Positions 2,257-24,380 of a stretch of DNA of 36,098 bases are shown here, piece by piece. The translations under genes were made by a program, and so were the position numbers. Under the pieces are notes generated by a model. It saw nothing but the letters and a program-made list of their open reading frames with translations, searched no databases and had not been told where the DNA came from. Origin of the DNA: Candidatus Sulfopaludibacter sp. SbA3 (GTDB taxonomy: Bacteria > Acidobacteriota > Terriglobia > 20CM-2-55-15); the NCBI GenBank assembly GCA_945865815.1, contig CAMBFR010000031.1, positions 1 to 36,098 on the forward strand, given 5' to 3'. Position 1 is the stretch's first letter. The number at the start of each line of letters is the position of its first letter.

Positions 2257-3408
2257 GTGAACCGCAACGTCATCGCCATATCTGCCGCAACTTTTTTGAT
2301 GAGCTTTGGCGAAGAACTGTGGAAGCGGTTTGTTCCGAAATACCTCGAAGCGCTTGGCGCTCCCGTGACGGCCGTAGGTCTCTACGGAACCCTGCGCGAC
2401 TTTGTTGACGGCATTTACCAGTATCCCGGCGGATGGATCACCGATCGATACGGCAGGCGGCGCGCCCTGCTTCTATTCATCGGACTCGCGGCGGCGGGCT
2501 ACGTTGTGTACATGCTGGCGCCGTCGTGGCCGTATGTGATCGCGGGCCTCTTCCTGGTAATGGGCTGGTCGAGCATGGCCAATCCGACTTTGTTCGCCGT
2601 CATAGGCGATGCGCTGCCCAAACAGCAACGGGCATACGGATTCACCATGCAAGCCATATTGAAACGAGTTCCGGTCGCCGCCGCCGCATGGCTCGGCGGA
2701 CTCGCGATCGCTACGTGGGGCGTAATCTCCGGCGTGCGGGCGAGCCTGCTGGCAACGCTGGTGTTCGCCGCGTTGACCGCAATCGCCGCGTTCCAGATTC
2801 GCCTGCCTTCAATTCCGCCGACGCAGCCTCACGCCAATGCCGGACTGTGGGCCCTGCTCCCTTCGCAACTGCGGCGCCTGCTCGCATCCGACATCCTGGT
2901 TCGAATCTGCGAGGGGCTCGTTGATGTGCTGATCGTCCTTTACGCCACCAACATCATCGGCGTCAGCGCGGTTCAGTTTGGCGTGCTGGTGGCGGTGCAG
3001 GCCGTCACATCGATGCTCGTGTACGTGCCTGCGGCGAAGATTGCCGACCGGATCGGCCGAAAACCGTTCGTGATCGTCACATTCCTGTTCTTTGCGCTGT
3101 TTCCGATCGCGGTGGTCTTATCCACGGGTTTTCGATCGCTGGTCGCGGCGTTCATCATCGGGGGACTGCGCGAGATCGGCGAACCTGCCCGCAAGGCCAT
3201 GATCGTGGACTTCGCCATCCCGGAGTTCCGCGGAAGAATGGTGGGCCTGTATTACTTCGCCCGAAGCATTTCGATTACGCCATCGGCCTTGATCGGAGGG
3301 CTGCTGTGGCGAATAACCCCGGCAGTGCCGTTCGTCGCCGCCGGTGTGATTGGAGTGATCGGAATGCTGGTTTTCGCGGCTACGGTCGACGAGCAGTACG
3401 CGTCGTAG
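2257..3408 (+). CDS. MFS transporter
   Basis: This 383-residue, very hydrophobic protein has the twelve-helix layout of the major facilitator superfamily. The loop-2/3 signature appears as 'GGWITDRYGRRRAL' (about residues 58-71) and is echoed in the second half as 'AKIADRIGRKPF', as expected from the internal duplication of this fold. The substrate is unknown. The start is a GTG with no clear ribosome site, 27 bases after the YHS gene, so coupling to that gene is possible. The last 140 bases (3269-3408) recur at 4064-4203, on the far side of a toxin-antitoxin pair. Confidence 0.88.
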   Translation: MNRNVIAISAATFLMSFGEELWKRFVPKYLEALGAPVTAVGLYGTLRDFVDGIYQYPGGWITDRYGRRRALLLFIGLAAAGYVVYMLAPSWPYVIAGLFLVMGWSSMANPTLFAVIGDALPKQQRAYGFTMQAILKRVPVAAAAWLGGLAIATWGVISGVRASLLATLVFAALTAIAAFQIRLPSIPPTQPHANAGLWALLPSQLRRLLASDILVRICEGLVDVLIVLYATNIIGVSAVQFGVLVAVQAVTSMLVYVPAAKIADRIGRKPFVIVTFLFFALFPIAVVLSTGFRSLVAAFIIGGLREIGEPARKAMIVDFAIPEFRGRMVGLYYFARSISITPSALIGGLLWRITPAVPFVAAGVIGVIGMLVFAATVDEQYAS

Positions 3409-3434
3409 CTATCTCTCGCGGTGTTGTGCCGCGT

Positions 3435-3728
3435 CTATGAGGCAAGAGTCTTCTTTGCCGCGGTGAATGCAGACTCTTCGATCTCGACCCGTTCCCGCAC
3501 GATCCGCTCAACCCATTTGTCGACCCCACTCTCACGGTGGAGCTTAGCCAGAAAAGCTGCTCGCGCGGCTAGCGCCGCTGGAATTGATAGTGACATGGAT
3601 TTTGGCCGCTTAACTACCATGGCCTTTCCCCAGGCGGAGTCCTCATCAGCATGCTCAGTGACAAATCGGTCGACTTGGCCCTGAGTCAGTTTCGGCTTCA
3701 ACGACGGTCTTTTTTTGCGCTGCTTCAT
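3435..3728 (-). CDS. BrnA-like / ribbon-helix-helix antitoxin
   Basis: This 97-residue protein has a basic N-terminus ('MKQRKKRPSLKPKLTQ'). Its C-terminal half, 'MSLSIPAALAARAAFLAKL' followed by 'VDKWVERIVRERVE', resembles the beta-strand plus two helices of ribbon-helix-helix DNA-binding antitoxins. It would neutralise the neighbouring BrnT-like toxin and repress the pair's promoter. The ATG at 3728 overlaps the toxin stop as ATGA and was preferred to the GTG at 3737. The toxin-first order matches known BrnTA modules. The family call rests on the partner and on the RHH-like tail, not on a strong motif. Confidence 0.68.
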   Translation of the reverse strand: MKQRKKRPSLKPKLTQGQVDRFVTEHADEDSAWGKAMVVKRPKSMSLSIPAALAARAAFLAKLHRESGVDKWVERIVRERVEIEESAFTAAKKTLAS

Positions 3729-3976
3729 ATCGGCCACCCAGTGATGATTCGAACCACGTTATGTGGCTTGAGTTGAAAGATGATCTTCAGCTTCCTTCCG
3801 CCCAGTGTCCGGCCGAGCAATTGATGACGATCACGATACTTCTTATTCCGGCGAATCTGAAAGTCAGAAAAGAAGCACTCCACGGCTTCATCGAAGGTCA
3901 CGCCGTGTTCAGCGAGTTCGTCCCGCTCGAAGTCATACTCGAAGTCCGAAGGAGTAAAGCGATGCCAATCGACCAC
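3725..3976 (-). CDS. brnT: BrnT-family toxin
   Basis: This 83-residue protein follows the BrnT (DUF497) pattern: an acidic/aromatic start 'FEYDFERDELAEHGVTFDEA', then 'RNKKYRDRHQLLGRT', 'LKIIFQL' and the terminal 'VVRIITGW'. BrnT toxins are RelE-like ribonucleases that act on RNA in the cytoplasm; this function comes from the family. The GTG at 3976 is the only usable start, because an in-frame TGA lies two codons upstream. The antitoxin gene follows with a 4-base overlap. The pair sits in the opposite orientation to the MFS gene whose 3' end flanks it on both sides. Confidence 0.78.
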   Translation of the reverse strand: MVDWHRFTPSDFEYDFERDELAEHGVTFDEAVECFFSDFQIRRNKKYRDRHQLLGRTLGGRKLKIIFQLKPHNVVRIITGWPI

Positions 3977-4063
3977 GGCTCATTCTATCGCGGAGCCAAA
4001 GCTTTTCCGGATTCGAGTCAACGCAACGATCTGAGTTTTGAGCACGCGCGGACTTCGCATCAG

Positions 4064-4203
4064 TTTCGATTACGCCATCGGTCCTGATCGGCGGGCTGCT
4101 GTGGCTAATAACACCGGCAATGCCGTTCGTCGCCGCCGGGGTAACTGGAGTGATCGGAATGCTGGTTTTTGCAGCTACCGTCGACGAGCAGTACGCGTCG
4201 TAA
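4064..4203 (+). pseudogene. second copy of the 3' end of the MFS transporter gene
   Basis: These 140 bases align without gaps to the last 140 bases of the MFS gene (3269-3408), with 13 differences (about 91% identity). They stay in frame for 46 codons up to a stop (TAA instead of TAG). Only four codons change the residue, and the other changes are silent, so the copy diverged mostly while under selection as a gene. No start or upstream part of the gene is present here. It is a displaced or imported gene tail, not a functional gene. Confidence 0.9.
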
Positions 4204-4255: not shown

Positions 4256-4470
4256 CTACGGCCGCAGGGCTTCAATGACGCAAACCGACGAATTTGTCGG
4301 TAAGATGGCATTCAGATCGAATCCCGCGCGAGTGAAAATAGCCTGGAAATCCTCCTTCGTACGTTCGCGGCCACCCGGCAGGGCCAACATTTCGATGTCC
4401 ATGACTTTGCCGAAATCCGGCACGTTGCCGGGGTTGATGACGCTTTCCAAGAGGATGACCTATGACCGCG
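4256..4470 (-). pseudogene. remnant of an O-methyltransferase (C-terminal ~70 codons)
   Basis: Read leftward, about 70 codons give 'VILLESVINPGNVPDFGK', then 'DIEMLALPGGRERTKEDF', 'IFTRAGFDLNAILPT' and 'SVCVIEALRP' before a TAG stop. This is the end of the SAM-dependent O-methyltransferase family (the plant-COMT/hydroxyneurosporene type), where the 'xDLxMLxxxGGRERT' segment is diagnostic. An in-frame TAG lies directly upstream, and the SAM-binding and dimerisation parts are missing, so this is a broken gene. The rest of 4204-4607 holds no other coding feature. Confidence 0.68.
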
Positions 4471-4570
4471 CACAATTTTGCAGGTTCTGCGGACTTTATG
4501 TGCAAAGCCGACGGGACCTGACCCTGTTTAGCCCACAGTAAGCACGCAAACCGGAAAGGTTTTTCTACCA

Positions 4571-4607: not shown

Positions 4608-5774
4608 ATGTTTGATCGGATACTCCGGATTCCGGCGTCCCAAAGTTTCTTCCTCTTCGGCGCGCGTGGCACGGGCAAGTCCACACTTCTATCCGCGCAG
4701 ATTCCCGCCGATCGAGCCATCTGGTTCGACTTGCTGGACCTGGATCTCGAGGCCGAATTCGACGTCCGGCCCATGGCTCTGATCGAGCGGCTGGAACCGG
4801 TGCGCGCCGATCGGCGCATCGAATGGATCGTCATTGACGAAGTTCAGAAAGCGCCCGCGCTCCTCGACGTGGTACAGAAGGAGATGGGCCGGCGCCGATT
4901 CCGGTTCGCCCTTTCCGGATCCAGCGCGCGCAAGCTCAAGCGCGGCGCCGCGAATCTGCTGGCAGGCCGCGCTCTGGAGCACCATTTGTTCCCTCTCACG
5001 CACGTCGAACTGGAGGACCGTTTCGATCTCGGTTTCGTTCTCCGTTGGGGGAGCATGCCCTCTGTCTTCACCATGGAGAATGAATCGGAACGGCAAGGCT
5101 ATCTTCGGACTTACGCCAATACGTACGTTAAAGAGGAGATTCAAGCCGGGCAACTGGTGCGGAAACTCGCGCCCTTTCGCGCTTTCCTCGACATTGCCGC
5201 CGACGCGTCCGGCCAGATCGTCAATTACAGCAAGATCGCACGCGCCGTCGGCAGCGACGCCGTTTCCGTGAAGAGCTATTTCGGCATTTTAGAAGACACG
5301 CTGCTGGGCTTTCATCTGCCCGCTTATGACCAGTCGCTCCGGGCGCGCCAAAGGCAGGCGCCCAAGTTCTATTTTTCTGACCTTGGAGTCCAGGCCGCCC
5401 TCCGGCGCCACCTCCATCTGGAGCTTGCCGAATCCACCTATGAGTTCGGCCGGCGATTCGAGCAATTTGTCGTCACGGAAATCTTCCGCCTGAATCACTA
5501 CAGAAAGGCGGACTATGCGCTCTCGTACCTGCGAACGAAGGATGACGCGGAGATCGATCTGATCGTAGAACGGCCCGGCGTCCCGACTTACCTGGTCGAG
5601 ATCAAATCGACGCGCCGCGTGAATGAAGACGACGTTCGAACCGTCGCGGCGTTTGCCGCCGATCTGCGTAAGTCCGTTCCGCTCTGCCTTTCCCGGGACG
5701 AAGTCAGCCGGACCATTCGAGGCGTCAAGTGCCTGCATTGGCGCAAGGGCATCGCTGAAATCGGCCTGGGATAA
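4608..5774 (+). CDS. AAA_14/DUF4143 ATP-binding protein
   Basis: This 388-residue protein has Walker A 'GARGTGKST' (18-26), Walker B 'IVIDE' (74-78) and the sensor-like 'FALSGSSARKLKRG' (about 98-111). A C-terminal DUF4143 half follows, ending in a nuclease-like fold segment with 'DDAEIDLIVERPG' and 'YLVEIKST', which resembles the D-(x)n-ExK core of PD-(D/E)XK nucleases. The length is normal for the family. These proteins are common in accessory DNA and their role is unknown; a link to mobile DNA or toxin-antitoxin biology has been suggested. It converges with the Cys-rich gene downstream: one base (5775) separates the two stop codons. Confidence 0.85.
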   Translation: MFDRILRIPASQSFFLFGARGTGKSTLLSAQIPADRAIWFDLLDLDLEAEFDVRPMALIERLEPVRADRRIEWIVIDEVQKAPALLDVVQKEMGRRRFRFALSGSSARKLKRGAANLLAGRALEHHLFPLTHVELEDRFDLGFVLRWGSMPSVFTMENESERQGYLRTYANTYVKEEIQAGQLVRKLAPFRAFLDIAADASGQIVNYSKIARAVGSDAVSVKSYFGILEDTLLGFHLPAYDQSLRARQRQAPKFYFSDLGVQAALRRHLHLELAESTYEFGRRFEQFVVTEIFRLNHYRKADYALSYLRTKDDAEIDLIVERPGVPTYLVEIKSTRRVNEDDVRTVAAFAADLRKSVPLCLSRDEVSRTIRGVKCLHWRKGIAEIGLG

Positions 5775-5775
5775 A

Positions 5776-6447
5776 CTAACCCTTCTTCGCAGTCTCAAAA
5801 AGGCGGGAGGCTCGTGTCGGATTGAACACACCGCAACTGCAGAATCGCGCCAGCGTTGTGGACGCCTGATCGGGCGTGCGTCTTCCCTGTTTCACCCACT
5901 CCACCAGCTTGCGCACGAGGTTGAAGGAAATCATTCCATGACCGCACATTGTGGAAAGCTCGAGCGTGTTGCGGTCGGCCATCCGGTCCGTCTGGCCGAA
6001 GAACCCGAGCGAGTATTCGACGCTGTGCCGCTCGAGTCCCGCACGGCGGGCACATTCCTGGGCCTTATCCAGAGCGCCGCTGATATTGATGGAAAGACCA
6101 AGATCCGCCGTCTTGAGTTCCTTGATGAAGGCGACGACGCTGTCCTGGTTATCAAAAACTGCCGCAACCGTGGTTGGACACGACACGCCGCTTTGAACGG
6201 CCTCGAAATTCGTGGTCTCATCGCGGCGCCAATGCACGGTCGGTTTCAGATCTTTGGAAGGCCTGTAGATGCAACCATGGCTCGCGTCGCCCAGGTTCAC
6301 CGGATTGTGCTTTTGCGCTATCTGAAGAAAGCGGCGCTCCTTTTCGACACAGTCCTTGTCGTTATGACCGCGGGCGGGTATCGCAAAAACGATGTAGTCG
6401 TCGCTGAAGCTTTCGGCGGATCCGTACCGGTGCAGTGTGTTGGTCAA
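5776..6447 (-). CDS. conserved Cys-rich protein of unknown function, coupled to a ferredoxin-like gene
   Basis: I do not recognise a named family in this 223-residue protein. It is rich in Cys set in short motifs: 'SHGCIYRP', 'SGVSCPTT', 'ECARRAG', 'STMCGHGMIS' and 'FCSCGVFNP'. This could mean metal, cluster or thiol chemistry. There is no signal peptide and no membrane segment. The start is taken as the TTG at 6447, which overlaps the stop of the ferredoxin-like gene as TTGA; an upstream extension in the same frame has shadow-like composition. The tight coupling suggests the two proteins work in one complex or reaction. Function unassigned. Confidence 0.66.
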   Translation of the reverse strand: MTNTLHRYGSAESFSDDYIVFAIPARGHNDKDCVEKERRFLQIAQKHNPVNLGDASHGCIYRPSKDLKPTVHWRRDETTNFEAVQSGVSCPTTVAAVFDNQDSVVAFIKELKTADLGLSINISGALDKAQECARRAGLERHSVEYSLGFFGQTDRMADRNTLELSTMCGHGMISFNLVRKLVEWVKQGRRTPDQASTTLARFCSCGVFNPTRASRLFETAKKG

Positions 6448-15857: not shown

Positions 15858-15989
15858 TCCCCCACTATTTCGTAACAACCCCCTAACTATCCAGGCTGTC
15901 GTGGAGTCGACTCGCGTAAAGTAAAGAGTCTGGAAAGGTCTGATTGCGAATAGAACGGTTTGAAGGACTCAATTAAGGTGGAGGAACAA

Positions 15990-18900
15990 ATGAAGAAACT
16001 GCTGGCAGTGGCTGCAACGCTGTTGTGTCTTCTCTCGACTTCGGCGTTCGCCCAGACGAGCAATGCTACGCTTGGTGGAACCGTTTCCGACGCTACTGGA
16101 GCTTTAATTCCCGGCGTCTCTATCACTGCAACGAATACCGGAACGGGTATCGTCTCGACCGGCATCACGAATGAGGCCGGGGCATACCAATTTGCCAGTC
16201 TCCAGACTGGAACTTACAACGTAACGGCGGAGTTGCCGGGCTTTCAGACACAAACGCGTAACGGTGTGGCGCTGGGAGTCTCGCAGCAGGTGCGTTTGAA
16301 CTTCGCGCTGCAGGTCGGCAGTGTGGCGCAGACGGTTGAAGTGACCGTTGCTGCGGACACGCTCATCGCGACCTCGTCCTCGTCGGTGGGAACCGTGCTT
16401 CCGGAATACAAGGTGCGCGACCTTCCTCTGGGCGGCCGCAACGTCATGGACCTGCTCTCGACAACCGGCGGCGCAGGCCCGACGGAAGACAACTTCGACG
16501 GTAATTTCGCCGGCGGCAGACTCAGTTCCGTTAACGTGACACGCGATGGCTTCAACGTCACGGACGGGCGGTACAACTACGGCGCCCTGACCAGTACCTA
16601 TACGAGTCCCGACCTGGTCGAGGAAGTCCGCGTCATCACGGCCCCTGTGGATGCCGAGTTCGGACGCGGGTCCGGCCAGGTACAGATGGTGACGCGCTCT
16701 GGGACGAACGCCTTCCGCGGCAGCGTCTTCTGGACCAACCGGAATTCCGCCCTCGACGCCAGCAAGTGGTTCAACAATCGCACCAATACCAAGAAGGATT
16801 ACGAGAACCGCAACCAGTTTGGCGCGCGTCTCGGTGGACCCATCATTAGGAATAAAACGTTCTTCTTCGTGCTTGTGGATGAACAGCGCTATTTGATCCG
16901 CCAGACTTTCGTAGGAAACGTCCTGACGAATCAGGCGCGGCAGGGAATCTTCCGGTTCTTCCCTGGAGCCGACAACCAGAACTCAAACCAGCTCAATCCC
17001 GCTGTGGATCGCAATGGCAATCCTGTAAGGCCCACGGGCGCTACAGGTGACGTTCAGCAGTTCAGCATCTTCGGCCGCGACGCATTCCGGCCGGCAATGG
17101 ACCCGACCGGATACATTCAAAGAACGTTCATCGCACGAATGCCGCAGCCGAACGATTACACGATCGGTGACGGCCTGAATACGGCCGGCATCCGCTTTAC
17201 ACGCCGAGTGGAAGGCTATGACCTTGCAGGCTCCAATGGTAACGATACGAATCGCGATCAGTTCAACACCCGTCTCGACCACAACTTCAACGCCAATCAC
17301 AAGTTCAGTTTTGTGTATACCTGGGAACGAGGCCGGAACATGGCCACTCAGGCGGGTATCGCGAATTGGCCGGGTGGTTACAACGGCGTGAATTGGAAAG
17401 ACCCGCGATTGATGACGCTGTCCCTTGTCTCCACGCTCTCTCCGACCGTCGTGAACGAACTTCGCGTGGGCCGGAAATCGGAGGCGAAACTCAGCCGTGC
17501 GCCCTGGTACGTCGGGCGGCCTTCGGGATTTACGCCTGAAGAAGAGAAGGTGGAAACCGGCGAAGAGGGCAAGGAGGCATTCGCTCTCCTTCCCAAAAAC
17601 AACGGGATTCCCTTCCAGGTCCTGACGACGCTGTTCCCAAGCAACCTGGTTGACATGGCCGCCGGACAGGGCACCAACCGCAGCGCCGACAGTCCGCTGT
17701 ACACCTATGGCGACACGCTCAGCTGGAGCAAAGGCGTACACGCGTTCAAGATGGGCGGCGAGTATCGTTACGGCCGTTCCATATCCGCCAACGACAGCAA
17801 CATGACGCCGATCGCACGGCTCGGAGCTGGTGGAGTGGCCGTCCAGGGTATCGACAATGTCGCTATTCCCGGCCTGACTGCGAACAACCAGACACGGGCG
17901 CGGGATCTGTTGACAGACCTGTCCGGTTCGATAAACAGGATCGATCAGGGTTTCGATCTCCGAGATCCGAAAGATCTGGTATTCCGGGGCTATGGCGATG
18001 GAGTGAAGTTCAGAGTACGCGACTGGCGTTCGAAGGATTTCTTCCTTTTCTTCAAGGATTCATGGAAGGCCCATCCGAATCTGACGCTGAACGTGGGCGT
18101 CTCTTACTATTATTTTGGCGTGCCGTATGAGGCGAAAGGTCTTGCCGGCACATTTGTCGGCGGAGAAAAGGGAGCGTGCGGACTTTCCTGCGGTTCCCTG
18201 TCGACCGTGGAATTCGTCGGCAAGAACTCTCCGAATCCGGACAAACAGTTCTTCAATGACGACTACAACAACTTTGCGCCGTCGTTCGGCCTGAGCTGGT
18301 CGCTTCCCTGGTTTGGGCAGGACAAGACCGTTCTCCGCGCGGGATATGGCTGGAGCTATACGGGCAACAATCTGATCGGCGTCAATACCAACCTGGAAAA
18401 TATCGGGAATCCCCCGGGCGTGTTCCAGGGTTCGGCCGGTTCCGGAATTCAGCACACGCAGGCGGCATACCTGTCGCTGGCGAACATCAGTCTGCCGATA
18501 CCTCAGCAGTTCGCGCCTCTGCGGCCCGTCCCGCTGGATGGCCCGCGTGGTGATGCATTGCACGTGGCTGTGGCGAATCGCGTCGCTCCATACACTCAGA
18601 ACTACAACCTGGAAATTCAACGGGAGCTTTCACGCGACATCACGCTGAGCGTCTCCTACGTCGGCACCAAGTCCACAAAGCTTTGGAATGGTTCGGCGCT
18701 CAACGCAGTGGACATTCGCAACAATGGCTTCCTGGATGCGTTCAACGTTACCCGGGCCGGCGGCAACGCGCCGCTGTTCGACACCATGTTGCGCGGCCTG
18801 AATATTCCAGGAGCTGGAGTAGTCAACGGCACGACCGTTACCGGATCTGCGGCGCTCCGCGCGTATACGAGCACCCGATCGTTCCTCGCGAACGGCAACA

Positions 18901-19943
18901 TCGGCCAGCTCGCGGACTTCCTGAACCGCAGCACGAGTATTACCGGCAGGGGCGGCGGATTCGTGCGTAACGGTGGGTTGCCGGAGAATTTCTTCGTGGT
19001 CAATCCCCAGTACAATACTGCGACGTTGCATGGCAATCTGAGCAATTCGACCTATCACTCCATGCAAACGCAGGTGACGAAGCGATTGTCAAACGCGTTC
19101 ACCACTCAGGCATCCTACACATGGAGCCGGGCTCTGGGCGCATGGGATACGGACCAGGCCCTGAACACCCGCGACCCGAGAAACCAGGGGCTGGACAAAA
19201 CCCTCCTCAATTACCATCGTACGCACACCTTCACCAGCAATGGCACCTACGAGCTGCCATTCGGACCGGGCCGGCCCCTGCTCGCGAACGCGCCGGGCTT
19301 CATTCAGCGCCTGGTCGAACGCTGGCAGTTCGGCGGTATCTTCAGCTGGTCTTCCGGACCGCCGCTGAGTATCGTGGCTCCGGTTACCACAATCTGGCAG
19401 GACACCCGAGTGCCTGCGGCATCGCCGGCAGGAACCGCCGCTGCCGGATACAACACCCCGAACCTCGTCGGCAACTTCCCGAAGGACTCTGGAAAAGTCA
19501 CCAAGCTGGCAAACGGAGTGACCTACTTCCCTGGCTTGCGGCAGATCACAGACCCGGCAGTTGCGGGCATCACGACGCTGCAGGGACTCAACGGCCAGTT
19601 CGGCAACAAGGCAATCGCCGACGCGCAAGGCAATATCCTGCTGGTTAATCCCTCTCCCGGACAGGTCGGCAACATGGGCCTGCGGTGGATCGAAGGGCCG
19701 GGCCGAATCGGGCTTGACATGAACATGATCAAGCGCGTGCGAATCACGGAAACCAAGGACTTCGAAGTCCGGATTGACGTGGTCAACGTGTTGAACTCGC
19801 CCCAGTTCGGCTACAACACCAATCGCGACACGCAGGACAACCCGTACCTGCTCAACTTGAACATAAACTCCGGAGATTTTGGATTCTTCAGAGACGCTCA
19901 GGGCGCCCGAAGATTCACGCTCGCGGGACGGTTCAACTTCTAG
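15990..19943 (+). CDS. TonB-dependent-receptor-like (Oar-type) outer-membrane protein 1
   Basis: This 1,317-residue protein has a signal peptide (1-21, 'KKLLAVAATLLCLLSTSAFA'). A carboxypeptidase-regulatory beta-sandwich follows (about 24-115: 'ATLGGTVSDATGALIPGV', 'GAYQFASLQTGTYNVTAELPGF'), then a plug-like region ('LPLGGRNVMDLL', 'FGRGSGQVQMVTRSGTN') and a large barrel ending 'RRFTLAGRFNF'. It probably takes up or binds a polymer or peptide at the outer membrane; the ligand is unknown. The ATG at 15990 has GGTGGAGGA upstream and was chosen over an earlier in-frame start at 15960. The gene has its own promoter and terminator. It is a close paralogue of the next gene, over 90% identical through the plug. 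Confidence 0.88.
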   Translation: MKKLLAVAATLLCLLSTSAFAQTSNATLGGTVSDATGALIPGVSITATNTGTGIVSTGITNEAGAYQFASLQTGTYNVTAELPGFQTQTRNGVALGVSQQVRLNFALQVGSVAQTVEVTVAADTLIATSSSSVGTVLPEYKVRDLPLGGRNVMDLLSTTGGAGPTEDNFDGNFAGGRLSSVNVTRDGFNVTDGRYNYGALTSTYTSPDLVEEVRVITAPVDAEFGRGSGQVQMVTRSGTNAFRGSVFWTNRNSALDASKWFNNRTNTKKDYENRNQFGARLGGPIIRNKTFFFVLVDEQRYLIRQTFVGNVLTNQARQGIFRFFPGADNQNSNQLNPAVDRNGNPVRPTGATGDVQQFSIFGRDAFRPAMDPTGYIQRTFIARMPQPNDYTIGDGLNTAGIRFTRRVEGYDLAGSNGNDTNRDQFNTRLDHNFNANHKFSFVYTWERGRNMATQAGIANWPGGYNGVNWKDPRLMTLSLVSTLSPTVVNELRVGRKSEAKLSRAPWYVGRPSGFTPEEEKVETGEEGKEAFALLPKNNGIPFQVLTTLFPSNLVDMAAGQGTNRSADSPLYTYGDTLSWSKGVHAFKMGGEYRYGRSISANDSNMTPIARLGAGGVAVQGIDNVAIPGLTANNQTRARDLLTDLSGSINRIDQGFDLRDPKDLVFRGYGDGVKFRVRDWRSKDFFLFFKDSWKAHPNLTLNVGVSYYYFGVPYEAKGLAGTFVGGEKGACGLSCGSLSTVEFVGKNSPNPDKQFFNDDYNNFAPSFGLSWSLPWFGQDKTVLRAGYGWSYTGNNLIGVNTNLENIGNPPGVFQGSAGSGIQHTQAAYLSLANISLPIPQQFAPLRPVPLDGPRGDALHVAVANRVAPYTQNYNLEIQRELSRDITLSVSYVGTKSTKLWNGSALNAVDIRNNGFLDAFNVTRAGGNAPLFDTMLRGLNIPGAGVVNGTTVTGSAALRAYTSTRSFLANGNIGQLADFLNRSTSITGRGGGFVRNGGLPENFFVVNPQYNTATLHGNLSNSTYHSMQTQVTKRLSNAFTTQASYTWSRALGAWDTDQALNTRDPRNQGLDKTLLNYHRTHTFTSNGTYELPFGPGRPLLANAPGFIQRLVERWQFGGIFSWSSGPPLSIVAPVTTIWQDTRVPAASPAGTAAAGYNTPNLVGNFPKDSGKVTKLANGVTYFPGLRQITDPAVAGITTLQGLNGQFGNKAIADAQGNILLVNPSPGQVGNMGLRWIEGPGRIGLDMNMIKRVRITETKDFEVRIDVVNVLNSPQFGYNTNRDTQDNPYLLNLNINSGDFGFFRDAQGARRFTLAGRFNF

Positions 19944-19965
19944 AACGGATCGAGACCCAAACCAA

Positions 19966-20001
19966 AACGCCCCTGCCGTTTCGGCAGGGGCGTTCGTTTT
20001 T
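19966..20001 (+). terminator. rho-independent terminator of receptor gene 1
   Basis: A 13-bp perfect stem (19966-19978 with 19982-19994) of the ACGCCCCTGCCG type has a TTT loop and is followed by CGTTTTT. It lies 23 bases after the receptor stop. The flanking sequence is shared with the terminator of receptor 2. Confidence 0.92.
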
Positions 20002-20051
20002 CCGTCAGATTTCGGATACACTCCGCGCCGTTGCTGCCGCGGTTGATTTCC

Positions 20052-20080
20052 TTGACCATCCAAACCGGTTATTAAATAAT
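20052..20080 (+). promoter_or_regulatory. promoter of receptor gene 2
   Basis: TTGACC (20052-20057), 17 bases, AATAAT (20075-20080), identical in boxes and spacing to the promoter of receptor 1. The leader to the ATG at 20219 is about 130 bases. The core promoter lies about 50 bases beyond the first terminator, so each receptor is its own unit. The leader contains GACTC...GAGTC half-sites, as does the leader of receptor 1. Confidence 0.75.
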
Positions 20081-20218
20081 CCCCTCACGATTTCAAAACA
20101 ACGTCTCCGTTACCACTCGGACGGACGTCGCGACTCTTCAATGGAGTCTGAGGCCAGTTCGATTGGGAATGGATAGTCCGGTTTAACTTTAAAGGGATCA
20201 GGGAAGGTGGAGGAAGAA

Positions 20219-23200
20219 ATGAAGAAAATACTCGCAGTGGCCGCAACGCTGATCTGTCTTTTCTCGATTCAGGCATTCGCTCAGACGACCAATGCCACGC
20301 TCGGGGGAACTGTTTCCGACGCAACTGGAGCTTTGATTCCAGGCGTCTCTGTCACGGCAACGAATACCGGAACCGGTATCGTCAGCACGGGCCTCACGAA
20401 TGAGGCCGGCGCCTACCAGTTTGCGAGTCTCCAGACAGGAACATATAACGTCACGGCCGAGTTGCCGGGCTTTCAGACCCAGGCCCGTAACGGAGTCGCG
20501 CTCGGGGTCTCGCAGCAGGTGCGCCTGAACTTCGCGCTGCAGGTTGGCACGGTGGCGCAGACGGTTGAAGTGACCGTGGCGGCCGACACACTGATCGCGA
20601 CGTCGTCGTCCTCGGTGGGTACCGTGCTTCCGGAGTACAAGGTGCGCGACCTTCCCCTGGGCGGCCGCAATGTGATGGATCTGCTCTCGACGACGGGCGG
20701 CACCGGCCCCAACGAAGGCAATTTTGACGGCTTCTTTGCGGGCGGCCGGCTGGACGCGGTGAACGTGACGCGGGACGGGTTCAACGTCACCGACGGCCGC
20801 TACAACTATGGCGCACTGACGAGCACGTATACCAGCCCCGACCTGGTCGAGGAAGTCCGCATCATCTCGGCGCCCGTGGATGCCGAAATCGGACGCGGTT
20901 CCGGGCAGGTGCAGATGGTCACCCGCTCCGGGACGAATGCGTTCCGCGGCAGCGCATTCTGGACGAACCGCAACTCGGCGCTCGACGCCAGCAACTGGTT
21001 TCTCAATCAGAGAGGCGCGGAGAAGGACTACGAGAACCGGAACCAGTTTGGCGTGCGTCTGGGCGGACCCATCATCCGGAACAAGACGTTCTTCTTCTTC
21101 CTGATCGACGAACAGCGCTACATCATCCGTGAGAATTTCGTCGGCAATGTGCTGACGCCTCAGGCGCGGCAGGGCACCTTCCGGTTTTTCCCGGGAGCCG
21201 ACAACCAGAACGCGCTGTCTCTCAATCCCTCCGTCGACCTCAACGGAAATCCGGTGAGGCCCAGAGGTGCGACAGGGGACCTTCAGCAGTTCAGCGTATA
21301 CGGCCGGGATGCATTCCGGCCCGGGCCCGATCCCACGGGTTTTATCCAGAACACCCTGCTTTCGCGGATGCCCGCGCCGAACGATTACACCGTCGGCGAC
21401 GGCCTGAATACCGCCGGCATCCGGTTTACGCGCCGGATCGATGGCTATGACCTGGCCGGTTCAAACGGAAACGACACGAACCGCGACCAGTTCAACACCC
21501 GCATCGACCACAACTTCAACGCCAACAACAAGCTCAGTTTCGTCTACACCTGGGAACGGGGCCGCAACATGGCGACGCAGTCGTTCATCACCGAGTGGCC
21601 CGGCGGCTTCAATGGCGCCAACTGGAAAGACCCGCGGGTGATGAACGTATCGTTCGTCTCCACGCTTTCCCCGACCGTCGTCAACGAACTGCGGGTCGGA
21701 CGGAAAACCGAATACAAACTCAGCCGGCCGCCGTTCCGCCTGGGGAGACCCGCGGGGTTCACAGCGGAAGAAGAGAAGGAGGAATTCGGTGAACTGGGAA
21801 AGGACGCCTATGCGCTTCTGCCCAAGTACAACGGCATTCCGACACAGGTGAGAACGCAGCTTTTTGAGAGAAATTTCTTCAACTGGAATGCCGGACAAGG
21901 AGACAGCCGCAGCTCCGACAGTCCGGCCCTCACGATTGCGGACACGTTGAGTTTTACCACAGGAGTCCATTCATTCAAATTCGGTGGTGAATTTCGCCGC
22001 AGCCGCGCCATATCCGCGAACGACAGCAATATGACTCCGGTAGTTTCGCTCGGCGAGGGTGGAGTGCCCGTGCAGAGCATTACCACTGCAACGATTTCAG
22101 GCCTGACGGGCAACAATGCGACAAGGGCGCGGCAACTGCTGACCGACCTGTCGGGCTCGGTGAATCAGATCCAACAGGGCTTCGATCTCCGGGACCCGAA
22201 GGTTCTGGAATTCCGCGGCTACGATCAAGGCGTGAAGTTCCGGTTGCGCGACTGGCGCACCACGGATTTCAGTTTCTTTTTCAAGGATTCCTGGAAAGTC
22301 AAACCGAACCTGACGTTGAATCTCGGCGCCTCTTACTACTACTTCGGCGTGCCGTATGAGCAGAACGGACTTGCCGGAAGAACGGCAACGGGCGGATACC
22401 AGGGTCTGTGCGGACTGGGGTGCGGCGCCCTGACGACCGCAAAGTTTGTAGGGAAGAACTCGCCCAATCCGGACGAGCAACTTTGGAACAATGACCTGAA
22501 CAACCTTGCGCCGTCCTTTGGCCTGAGCTGGTCGCTTCCGTGGTTTGGGGCCGACAAGACCGTCCTTCGGGCGGGATATGGCTGGTCGTATCCGGGCAAC
22601 AACCTCGTTAACGTGGTTGGAGGTCCCGAAGCGATAGCGGGTTCCACTCCGGGCGCTTTCGGGGGTTCCGGAGGAGGCGGCACGGTATACACGCAACGGG
22701 ATTTCCTGTCATTGTCGAATCTCAGGCTTCCGATAAACCATGGGCTGGTCCCGCTTCTGCCGGTACCCCTGAATGGGTCGCGCGGTGACACCATGCAGGG
22801 AGCCGACACCAATCGTGTGAGCCCTTACACTCAAAACTTCAATCTGGAGCTTCAGCGGGAGATCTCACGAGACCTGTCACTGAGCGTCAGCTACGTGGGA
22901 ACGAAATCAACCAGGCTCTGGCATGCCGTGCCGCTCAATGTGGTCGACATTCGCGGCAACGGTTTTCTTGAGGCGTTCAACACCACGCGGGCCGGCGGCA
23001 ATGCTCCATTGTTCGATCAAATGTTGAGGGGACTCAATATCCCCGGAGCGGGCGTAGTGAACGGCACGACGGTCACAGGATCGGCCGCGCTGCGTTCGTA
23101 TACGTCCACGCGATCGTTTATCGCCGATGGCAATGTCGGTCAGCTCGCGGATTTCCTGAATCGCAGCAGGAATGTCACGGGCGCAGGCGGCGGTTTCGTC

Positions 23201-24169
23201 CGAAACGGCGGACTGCCGGAGACCTTCTTTGTGCTCAATCCCCAGTTCAATCAGGTGCGAATGCACTCCAATCCGTCCAACTCCACCTATCACGCGCTGC
23301 AGGTCCAGATGACGAAACGGCTGTCGCAGGGCTTTACCAGCCAGACGACCTACACGTGGAGCCGCACTTTGGGCGCAACCGATTCGGACAACACATTGAA
23401 CGACACCGTCAACAATCGGGATCCCAACAATCTGGCGATCGACAAAGCGGTGCTTGCGTATCATCGTACGCACAACTTCGCCACCAACGGCACGTACGAA
23501 TTGCCGTTTGGCCCGGGACACCGCTTCCTGAGCGACGCGCCATCGGTTGTGCAGCGGGTTGTCGAACGTTGGCAGTTCGGCGCCATCTTCAACTGGACTT
23601 CGGGACGGCCGCTCACGCTGACGGCTCCGGTGTCCACAGTCTGGCAAAACACGGTAGGCAATCCGGCGCTTCCGTTTAACACGCCCAATATTGCCGGGGA
23701 TTTTCCCAAGAACACCGGTAAGGTCACCAAGCTGGGGAATGCCGTGACATATTTCCCGGGCCTGCAGCAGATCACCGATCCGGCGATTGCCGGCGTGACA
23801 GCGCTGAACGGACTGAGCGGCGTATTCAGCAACAAGGCGATCGTCGATTCTCAGGGCCGGATCCTTCTGGTGAATCCGTCTCCGGGTCAGGTCGGGAACA
23901 TGGGCCTGAGATGGATCGAAGGACCATCGTACCTCGGGCTGGATATGAATCTGATCAAGCGGGTGCGGATCACCGAGACCAAGGAGTTTGAATTCCGCAT
24001 CGATACCGTCAACGTGCTGAACCATCCCAATTTCGGTTACAGCAATGATCGCCTCACGCAGGGCAACCCGACACGCATCGAACTGGATATCAGCTCGCCA
24101 AACTTCGGGCGCATCACCAGCGCAAGCGGCAGCCGCCGATTCACCATCGGCGGCCGTTTGAACTTCTAG
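20219..24169 (+). CDS. TonB-dependent-receptor-like (Oar-type) outer-membrane protein 2
   Basis: This 1,316-residue paralogue of the preceding gene has the same order of parts: signal peptide, carboxypeptidase-regulatory domain, plug-like region and a large barrel ending 'RRFTIGGRLNF'. Changes concentrate in barrel segments such as those after 'RLGRPAGFTAEEEKEEFGE' and around 'GGSGGGGTVYTQRDFL', which would be loop regions, while domain 1 and the plug are almost unchanged. That pattern suggests the two proteins share partners but differ in ligand. The ATG at 20219 has GGTGGAGGA upstream; a GTG at 20207 overlaps that site and is unlikely. It has its own promoter and terminator. Confidence 0.88.
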   Translation: MKKILAVAATLICLFSIQAFAQTTNATLGGTVSDATGALIPGVSVTATNTGTGIVSTGLTNEAGAYQFASLQTGTYNVTAELPGFQTQARNGVALGVSQQVRLNFALQVGTVAQTVEVTVAADTLIATSSSSVGTVLPEYKVRDLPLGGRNVMDLLSTTGGTGPNEGNFDGFFAGGRLDAVNVTRDGFNVTDGRYNYGALTSTYTSPDLVEEVRIISAPVDAEIGRGSGQVQMVTRSGTNAFRGSAFWTNRNSALDASNWFLNQRGAEKDYENRNQFGVRLGGPIIRNKTFFFFLIDEQRYIIRENFVGNVLTPQARQGTFRFFPGADNQNALSLNPSVDLNGNPVRPRGATGDLQQFSVYGRDAFRPGPDPTGFIQNTLLSRMPAPNDYTVGDGLNTAGIRFTRRIDGYDLAGSNGNDTNRDQFNTRIDHNFNANNKLSFVYTWERGRNMATQSFITEWPGGFNGANWKDPRVMNVSFVSTLSPTVVNELRVGRKTEYKLSRPPFRLGRPAGFTAEEEKEEFGELGKDAYALLPKYNGIPTQVRTQLFERNFFNWNAGQGDSRSSDSPALTIADTLSFTTGVHSFKFGGEFRRSRAISANDSNMTPVVSLGEGGVPVQSITTATISGLTGNNATRARQLLTDLSGSVNQIQQGFDLRDPKVLEFRGYDQGVKFRLRDWRTTDFSFFFKDSWKVKPNLTLNLGASYYYFGVPYEQNGLAGRTATGGYQGLCGLGCGALTTAKFVGKNSPNPDEQLWNNDLNNLAPSFGLSWSLPWFGADKTVLRAGYGWSYPGNNLVNVVGGPEAIAGSTPGAFGGSGGGGTVYTQRDFLSLSNLRLPINHGLVPLLPVPLNGSRGDTMQGADTNRVSPYTQNFNLELQREISRDLSLSVSYVGTKSTRLWHAVPLNVVDIRGNGFLEAFNTTRAGGNAPLFDQMLRGLNIPGAGVVNGTTVTGSAALRSYTSTRSFIADGNVGQLADFLNRSRNVTGAGGGFVRNGGLPETFFVLNPQFNQVRMHSNPSNSTYHALQVQMTKRLSQGFTSQTTYTWSRTLGATDSDNTLNDTVNNRDPNNLAIDKAVLAYHRTHNFATNGTYELPFGPGHRFLSDAPSVVQRVVERWQFGAIFNWTSGRPLTLTAPVSTVWQNTVGNPALPFNTPNIAGDFPKNTGKVTKLGNAVTYFPGLQQITDPAIAGVTALNGLSGVFSNKAIVDSQGRILLVNPSPGQVGNMGLRWIEGPSYLGLDMNLIKRVRITETKEFEFRIDTVNVLNHPNFGYSNDRLTQGNPTRIELDISSPNFGRITSASGSRRFTIGGRLNF

Positions 24170-24191
24170 CACGGATCGAGACCCAAACCAG

Positions 24192-24227
24192 AACGCCCCT
24201 GCCGAAACGGCAGGGGCGTTTGTTTTT
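24192..24227 (+). terminator. rho-independent terminator of receptor gene 2
   Basis: The same 13-bp stem as terminator 1 (24192-24204 with 24208-24220) has an AAA loop where the other has TTT, and is followed by TGTTTTT. It begins 22 bases after the receptor stop. Confidence 0.92.
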
Positions 24228-24380
24228 GCGGCAGATTTCCGGAAAACGGGAATATGGACTAAAGCCGCATGAGATCCACGTCCGGCCGTCTGCGGAGCCT
24301 TCCGCGTCAGCCCCTCTGTTCCGGCGATACGCTGTGGATGAAAGGCTCAAGGATACAGCGGGGATTTAACGGCAATCCCC

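Follow-up and report, generated by a model that had tools for sequence, protein, structure and literature searches.

A toxin-antitoxin (TA) operon and its own upstream region appear to have entered the chromosome of Candidatus Sulfopaludibacter sp. SbA3 at the end of a protein-coding gene. Within the window, by which we mean the whole stretch of 36,098 nucleotides that was analysed, a 655-bp operon of the BrnT/BrnA type was probably inserted at the 3' end of a gene for an MFS transporter, with about 140 bp of the target being duplicated in the process. The same kind of scar, made each time from different host DNA, recurs beside TA pairs at unrelated genes in other genomes of the class, and such operons seem to enter chromosomes with target duplications of about 50-170 bp.

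The MFS locus and its two tails

The insertion host is an intact gene of 383 codons (2257..3408, plus strand; an open reading frame with a Pfam MFS_1 match at E=3.9e-32), which stands in a phosphofructokinase - YHS - MFS order conserved in two related genomes, G001 and G006. Its last 45 codons and stop constitute T1 (3269..3408, plus strand), the functional copy of a duplicated tail. Across the cassette from the gene lies T2 (4064..4203, plus strand), a decaying copy recognised from the direct repeat, from the codon positions of its changes and by tblastn. The repeat search returned the two as an ungapped direct repeat of 139 nt at 91% identity (3269-3407 and 4064-4202), with a self-BLAST E of about 1e-51, far beyond chance. 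Counted up to the stop codon, there are 13 differences in 140 positions, in agreement with the first-pass annotation, which had the last 140 bases of the gene recurring without gaps at 4064-4203. These differences fall two, three and eight at codon positions 1, 2 and 3, and they alter four amino acids (A>V, R>L, V>M and I>T) and the stop codon (TAG>TAA). T2 contains MFS codons 337-383 (the last 47) alone, and tblastn found no other MFS sequence in it. That T2 might be longer and internally deleted was considered and rejected, the 12-nt match 5' of T2 being unconvincing and tblastn adding nothing further of the transporter.

The inserted cassette (3409..4063, 655 bp) is bounded by T1 and T2 and consists of the TA operon alone, with no other gene apparent, 26 bp following the antitoxin and 87 bp preceding the toxin. 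No integrase gene is present in these 655 bp, whose content is made up of the two small genes. Terminal repeats or a fixed att sequence of a moving unit were not seen, a crude scan, which is not a validated model, gave no attC-like site at the cassette, and a sigma-70 promoter scan of the cassette gave no match.

Several features of the surrounding DNA deserve mention in their own right. Beyond the cassette, 3' of T2, lies a piece of a dispersed intergenic repeat (4460..4510, plus strand; GACCGCGCACAATTTTGCAGGTTCTGCGGAC), with other copies in both genomes of the genus, G000 (that of the window) and G001 (loci L017, L019 and L020). A dispersed repeat or IS as the carrier of the cassette was rejected, as this piece falls outside it. 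T2 is also adjoined by an orphan gene end (4256-4450, minus strand), a 64-aa remnant corresponding to the extreme end of Methyltransf_2 O-methyltransferases. At 4608-5774 there is an AAA_14/DUF4143 ATPase gene that matches the PADLOC candidate defence models PDC-S01 and is halved in G001. Farther along, window positions 15959-24239 are occupied by two 4-kb genes in tandem, 74% identical in DNA, whose products are outer-membrane beta-barrel proteins (OMP_b-brl_4).

The toxin and its antitoxin-like partner

The BrnT/BrnA-like pair that had been described between the copies, in the opposite direction, was recovered at 3435-3976 on the minus strand. Its first gene encodes a BrnT-like RNase toxin of 83 aa (3725..3976, minus strand), whose match to Pfam BrnT (E=1.6e-7, 32.0 bits) lies slightly below the cut-off of 34.5. 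The AlphaFold model of the toxin (pLDDT 79) was matched by Foldseek most closely to BrnT of Brucella, 3u97 (TM 0.71/0.76, E=2e-3), and to 7vd7 (E=8.5e-4), and on this model the toxin is assigned a BrnT ribonuclease fold with a predicted activity. The end of the toxin gene overlaps the start of its partner by 13 nt. This partner, an antitoxin-like ORF of 100 aa in the position of BrnA (3435..3737, minus strand), belongs to a family common to nine other genomes of the class and gave no Pfam or NCBIfam match, including to the BrnA family PF14384. From codon comparison with the toxin of genome G043 (dN 0.17, dS 2.2), the toxin is under strong purifying selection, and the TA function of the pair is putative. 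With the type II system BrnT/BrnA (PF04365/PF14384; 3u97) the pair shares the toxin fold, the toxin-first operon, the overlapping genes and the pair size; it differs in a toxin just below the Pfam cut-off and an antitoxin without a Pfam match. The pair is thus a diverged subfamily of BrnT/BrnA.

Which of the two tails changed

G001, the sole same-genus genome, was taken as the reference for private changes, of which T1 has two and T2 eight, five of the latter at codon positions 1 and 2. On this asymmetry between the aligned tails, T1 is the gene's own tail and T2 a decaying remnant. The differences had earlier been called mostly silent, which describes the pair well (8 of 13 at third positions) and fails for the changes private to T2. 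The divergence of about 9% had further been read as an argument against a fresh duplication, a reading that does not follow, because T2 is free to decay and a local duplication still fits. The divergence between the tails is of about the order of the split between G000 and G001.

In G001 the phosphofructokinase, YHS and MFS genes stand in the same order, and the genes beyond window position 5776 are also kept, so that the contig of the window is not chimeric. Between them G001 is itself rearranged (L022:2018-3932): its MFS gene has lost the N-terminal half through an in-frame deletion, and its AAA/DUF4143 gene breaks off after the first half, where a second MFS tail and then a DUF2442/DUF4160 pair follow. 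No clean empty site was found for the insertion in the window, because the only same-genus genome is rearranged there; the more distant G006 has one MFS gene with one tail. A five-sequence likelihood test favoured, without significance, trees in which the tails of one genome, either those of the window or those of G001, pair with each other, and the tree joining the first tails of the two genomes to each other, and likewise the second tails, had a p-AU of 0.06. A tail duplication ancestral to the window and G001 was therefore set aside, given that the second tails stand in different contexts and that the quartet favours grouping within genomes, though not significantly.

The same footprint at other genes

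When 399 genomes of the class were searched with the toxin and, separately, with the antitoxin, relatives of the pair turned up in a dozen or so of them, and several of these loci repeat the architecture of the MFS locus. In G043 (L005) the pair comes after a 454-aa gene, and beyond the pair lies a damaged copy of the tail of that gene; the 46-bp BLAST core of the repeat is part of a longer tail copy with an internal deletion. In G183 (L116) the pair stands between two amidase tail copies (94 bp, 84%), and in G206 (L119) a BrnT-type toxin with a CopG-type antitoxin stands between two PfkB tail copies (158 bp, 96%). At all these tail-repeat loci each copy comprises only the last codons of its own gene. 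The proposal that a small TA cassette had moved into the 3' end of a protein-coding gene is thus supported, and the search for such cassettes after other genes that the first-pass annotation recommended was answered at G043, G183 and G206.

A more elaborate case is found in the genome of the window itself, on contig C45 (L184:3388-6462), where the order is a kinase gene, X1, a typical BrnT/BrnA pair, X2, a two-gene cassette, X3 and hrpB. The repeats X1 (70 bp), X2 (174 bp) and X3 (174 bp) are 94-96% identical and consist of non-coding DNA together with the first codons of hrpB. The two-gene cassette encodes proteins of 444 and 281 aa without a Pfam family, presumably AbiEi/AbiEii-like. Across the sites the repeats range from 46 to 174 bp, the duplicated host DNA differs per site and the TA pair occurs in either orientation. 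No constant attachment core is present across these insertions, the repeats being made of MFS, amidase, PfkB and uncharacterised gene tails and of the hrpB start region.

Single-copy sites in sister genomes were found for three of these insertions. The insertion in G206 has its counterpart in the sister G399, where the two flanks are contiguous across a single PfkB tail. This tail is 82.6% identical to the attached copy (T1) and 83.2% to the stranded copy (T2), and the comparison of aligned tails speaks for duplication of DNA that belonged to the host. In the case of G183, a single amidase tail is present in each of the sisters G191, G167 and G103, and the stranded G183 copy runs on into downstream bases common to G167. 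For G043, the single tail of the sister G030 is matched by the stranded copy at 45 of 46 positions and less well by the attached one; the attached tail could here be derived from a donor. An empty site whose single tail lies nearer the downstream copy had been proposed as a mark of cassette insertion. G043 gives that pattern over 46 bp, which is not decisive, and G206 does not, its copies being equidistant.

Other arrangements were met at some of these loci. Beside the stranded amidase tail of G183 lies one of more than 30 near-identical copies in that genome of a repeat of about 140 bp (L116:1138-1279). In G218, on contig C49 (L150:677-2974), a decayed PfkB tail copy is parted from its gene by a glycosyltransferase gene, and it is possible that one insertion point at the PfkB 3' end was used repeatedly, by different cargo, in G206 and G218. 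Since this insert is not a TA pair, the footprint may not be specific to TA systems. In G003, a genome of the same family, BrnT and DUF4160/DUF2442 pairs lie in attC-like repeats (GCATAAC...GTTATGC) at L063, L097, L101 and L105, loci that are probably integron cassette arrays.

How often such repeats bracket a TA pair was surveyed with direct repeats of at least 40 bp, at E of at most 1e-5 and within 250 bp. They bracket four of the nine surveyed loci of the TA type of the window, and four of the five whose toxin is full or nearly full; most loci lacking repeats have lost the toxin. The direct repeats at several TA loci of G003 were left out of the count because they proved attC-like. Control loci gave none in 1414 placements at 43 loci, mostly conserved MFS neighbourhoods and not accessory regions. 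Nor are bracketing repeats a trait of TA loci in general: of 22 further BrnT/DUF4160 loci whose flanks are complete, from G000, G001, G006 and G010, C45 has such repeats and the remaining 21 lack them.

Proposed mechanism and alternative explanations

In the mechanism that we favour, the unit that moves would be the operon with its own upstream region, and the target would be duplicated between two staggered points to give the order gene, T1, TA, T2 and downstream DNA. A duplicated stretch that spans the end of a gene, or its start as at hrpB, would leave that gene intact; T1 would be kept by the MFS gene, and T2, stranded beyond the cassette, would decay. The duplication would be made during insertion from the host's own DNA, for example by two staggered breaks with fill-in or by template switching. 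Direct repeats of this length would normally permit deletion of the insert by recombination. Its persistence may be explained by addiction: a cell that lost the insert through such recombination would lose the antitoxin and be punished by the toxin. What the sequences show directly is the repeat structure, the decay of T2, the recurrence of the scar beside unrelated genes and in further species, and, for three of these cases, a sister genome with a single tail.

The main rival to target duplication is a homology-facilitated illegitimate recombination, in which a donor tail with its TA pair recombined homologously within the gene and was joined illegitimately beyond it, so that T1 would be the donor tail and T2 the old native one. 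We regard this as a less likely but serious alternative. It would account for the near identity of the stranded tail in G043 to the single tail of the sister. It would also suit G218, where the stranded PfkB copy resembles the native tail of G206 and the attached tail, across the glycosyltransferase, is diverged, and G001, where the second tail and the DUF2442/DUF4160 pair sit within another gene. The private changes in the window point the other way, and donors would be required that already had the same TA at each host gene. The two copies in G206 are equally far from the tail of the sister and 96% alike, and the duplicated stretch on C45 is non-coding DNA with a gene start, stacked three times; both observations fit target duplication. 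The related earlier suggestion, that an element brought its own replacement tail, likewise fits less well, as the duplicated piece differs per site and matches the local gene.

A tandem MFS paralogue deleted down to its tail, the other origin that had been proposed for T2, seems improbable. The locus in G001 is one that is actively deleting, as the loss of half of the MFS gene and the halving of the AAA gene attest, but no full second MFS gene was seen in G001 or G006, nor did the protein search bring one up in the rest of the class genomes that were examined, and the sole extra piece in G001 is a tail. No MFS sequence remains 5' of codon 337 in T2, and the tail-only footprint recurs at unrelated genes beside TA pairs. 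Still a little less credible is site-specific integration, whether at a tyrosine integrase att site in the gene 3' end or as an integron cassette, with the integrase since lost. Gene 3' ends often serve as att sites, and attC-like repeats do surround TA cassettes in G003 of the same family. Against it, the repeats come from unrelated host genes, vary from 46 to 174 bp and enclose TA pairs in either orientation, the cassette has no integrase, and the crude scan found no attC-like site at the repeat-bracketed TA loci.

Relation to known systems and significance

Insertion of restriction-modification (RM) systems with long target duplication was reportedly described by Nobusato et al. in 2000 and Furuta et al. 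in 2010. In three published accounts (PMC3874152, PMC3031569, PMC1643837), the insertion of RM systems is reported to be accompanied by a long duplication of the target, variable in length and of the order of 100 bp. The cases described here share with them an addictive gene pair, variable repeats of about 100 bp and single-copy sites in relatives. They differ in the nature of the insert, here a type II TA pair whose toxin is an RNase, so that no enzyme of its own could make the DNA break, and in the repeats, which are old and 4-16% diverged. By analogy, the footprint in the window would work like the RM case, and it is not a member of that class, as the insert is not an RM system. In the literature searched, no report of a long target duplication on TA insertion was found.

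In attachment of phages and islands in gene 3' ends, of the icd/e14 type, the tail of the gene is duplicated with differences and the gene is kept intact, as it is here. Unlike that type, the present loci have no integrase and no constant att core, and the gene differs per site, one insertion being at a gene start. With TA-carrying integron cassettes the MFS locus shares a tiny mobile TA cassette, of which G003 provides attC-like arrays in the same family; it differs in having no attC-like site on the crude scan and in repeats that are host-gene DNA.

A bolder generalisation, which we offer tentatively, is that bare TA operons are themselves mobile units that make target duplications of 50-170 bp without a transposase and are retained by addiction, a cell that deleted them through recombination between the repeats being killed. 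The long duplication would then be a common scar of illegitimate DNA capture, visible at RM and TA systems since no insert other than an addictive one would last between direct repeats.

Outside plasmids, phages and integrons, it is little understood how type II TA pairs come to reside in chromosomes. Were long target duplications to accompany their entry, the scars would date and map their arrivals and provide empty-site tests. Given that BrnT is an RNase, a scar like that of RM systems would mean that the restriction enzyme is dispensable for making it, and the same scar at both would mean that addiction may be what decides which inserts between repeats are kept.
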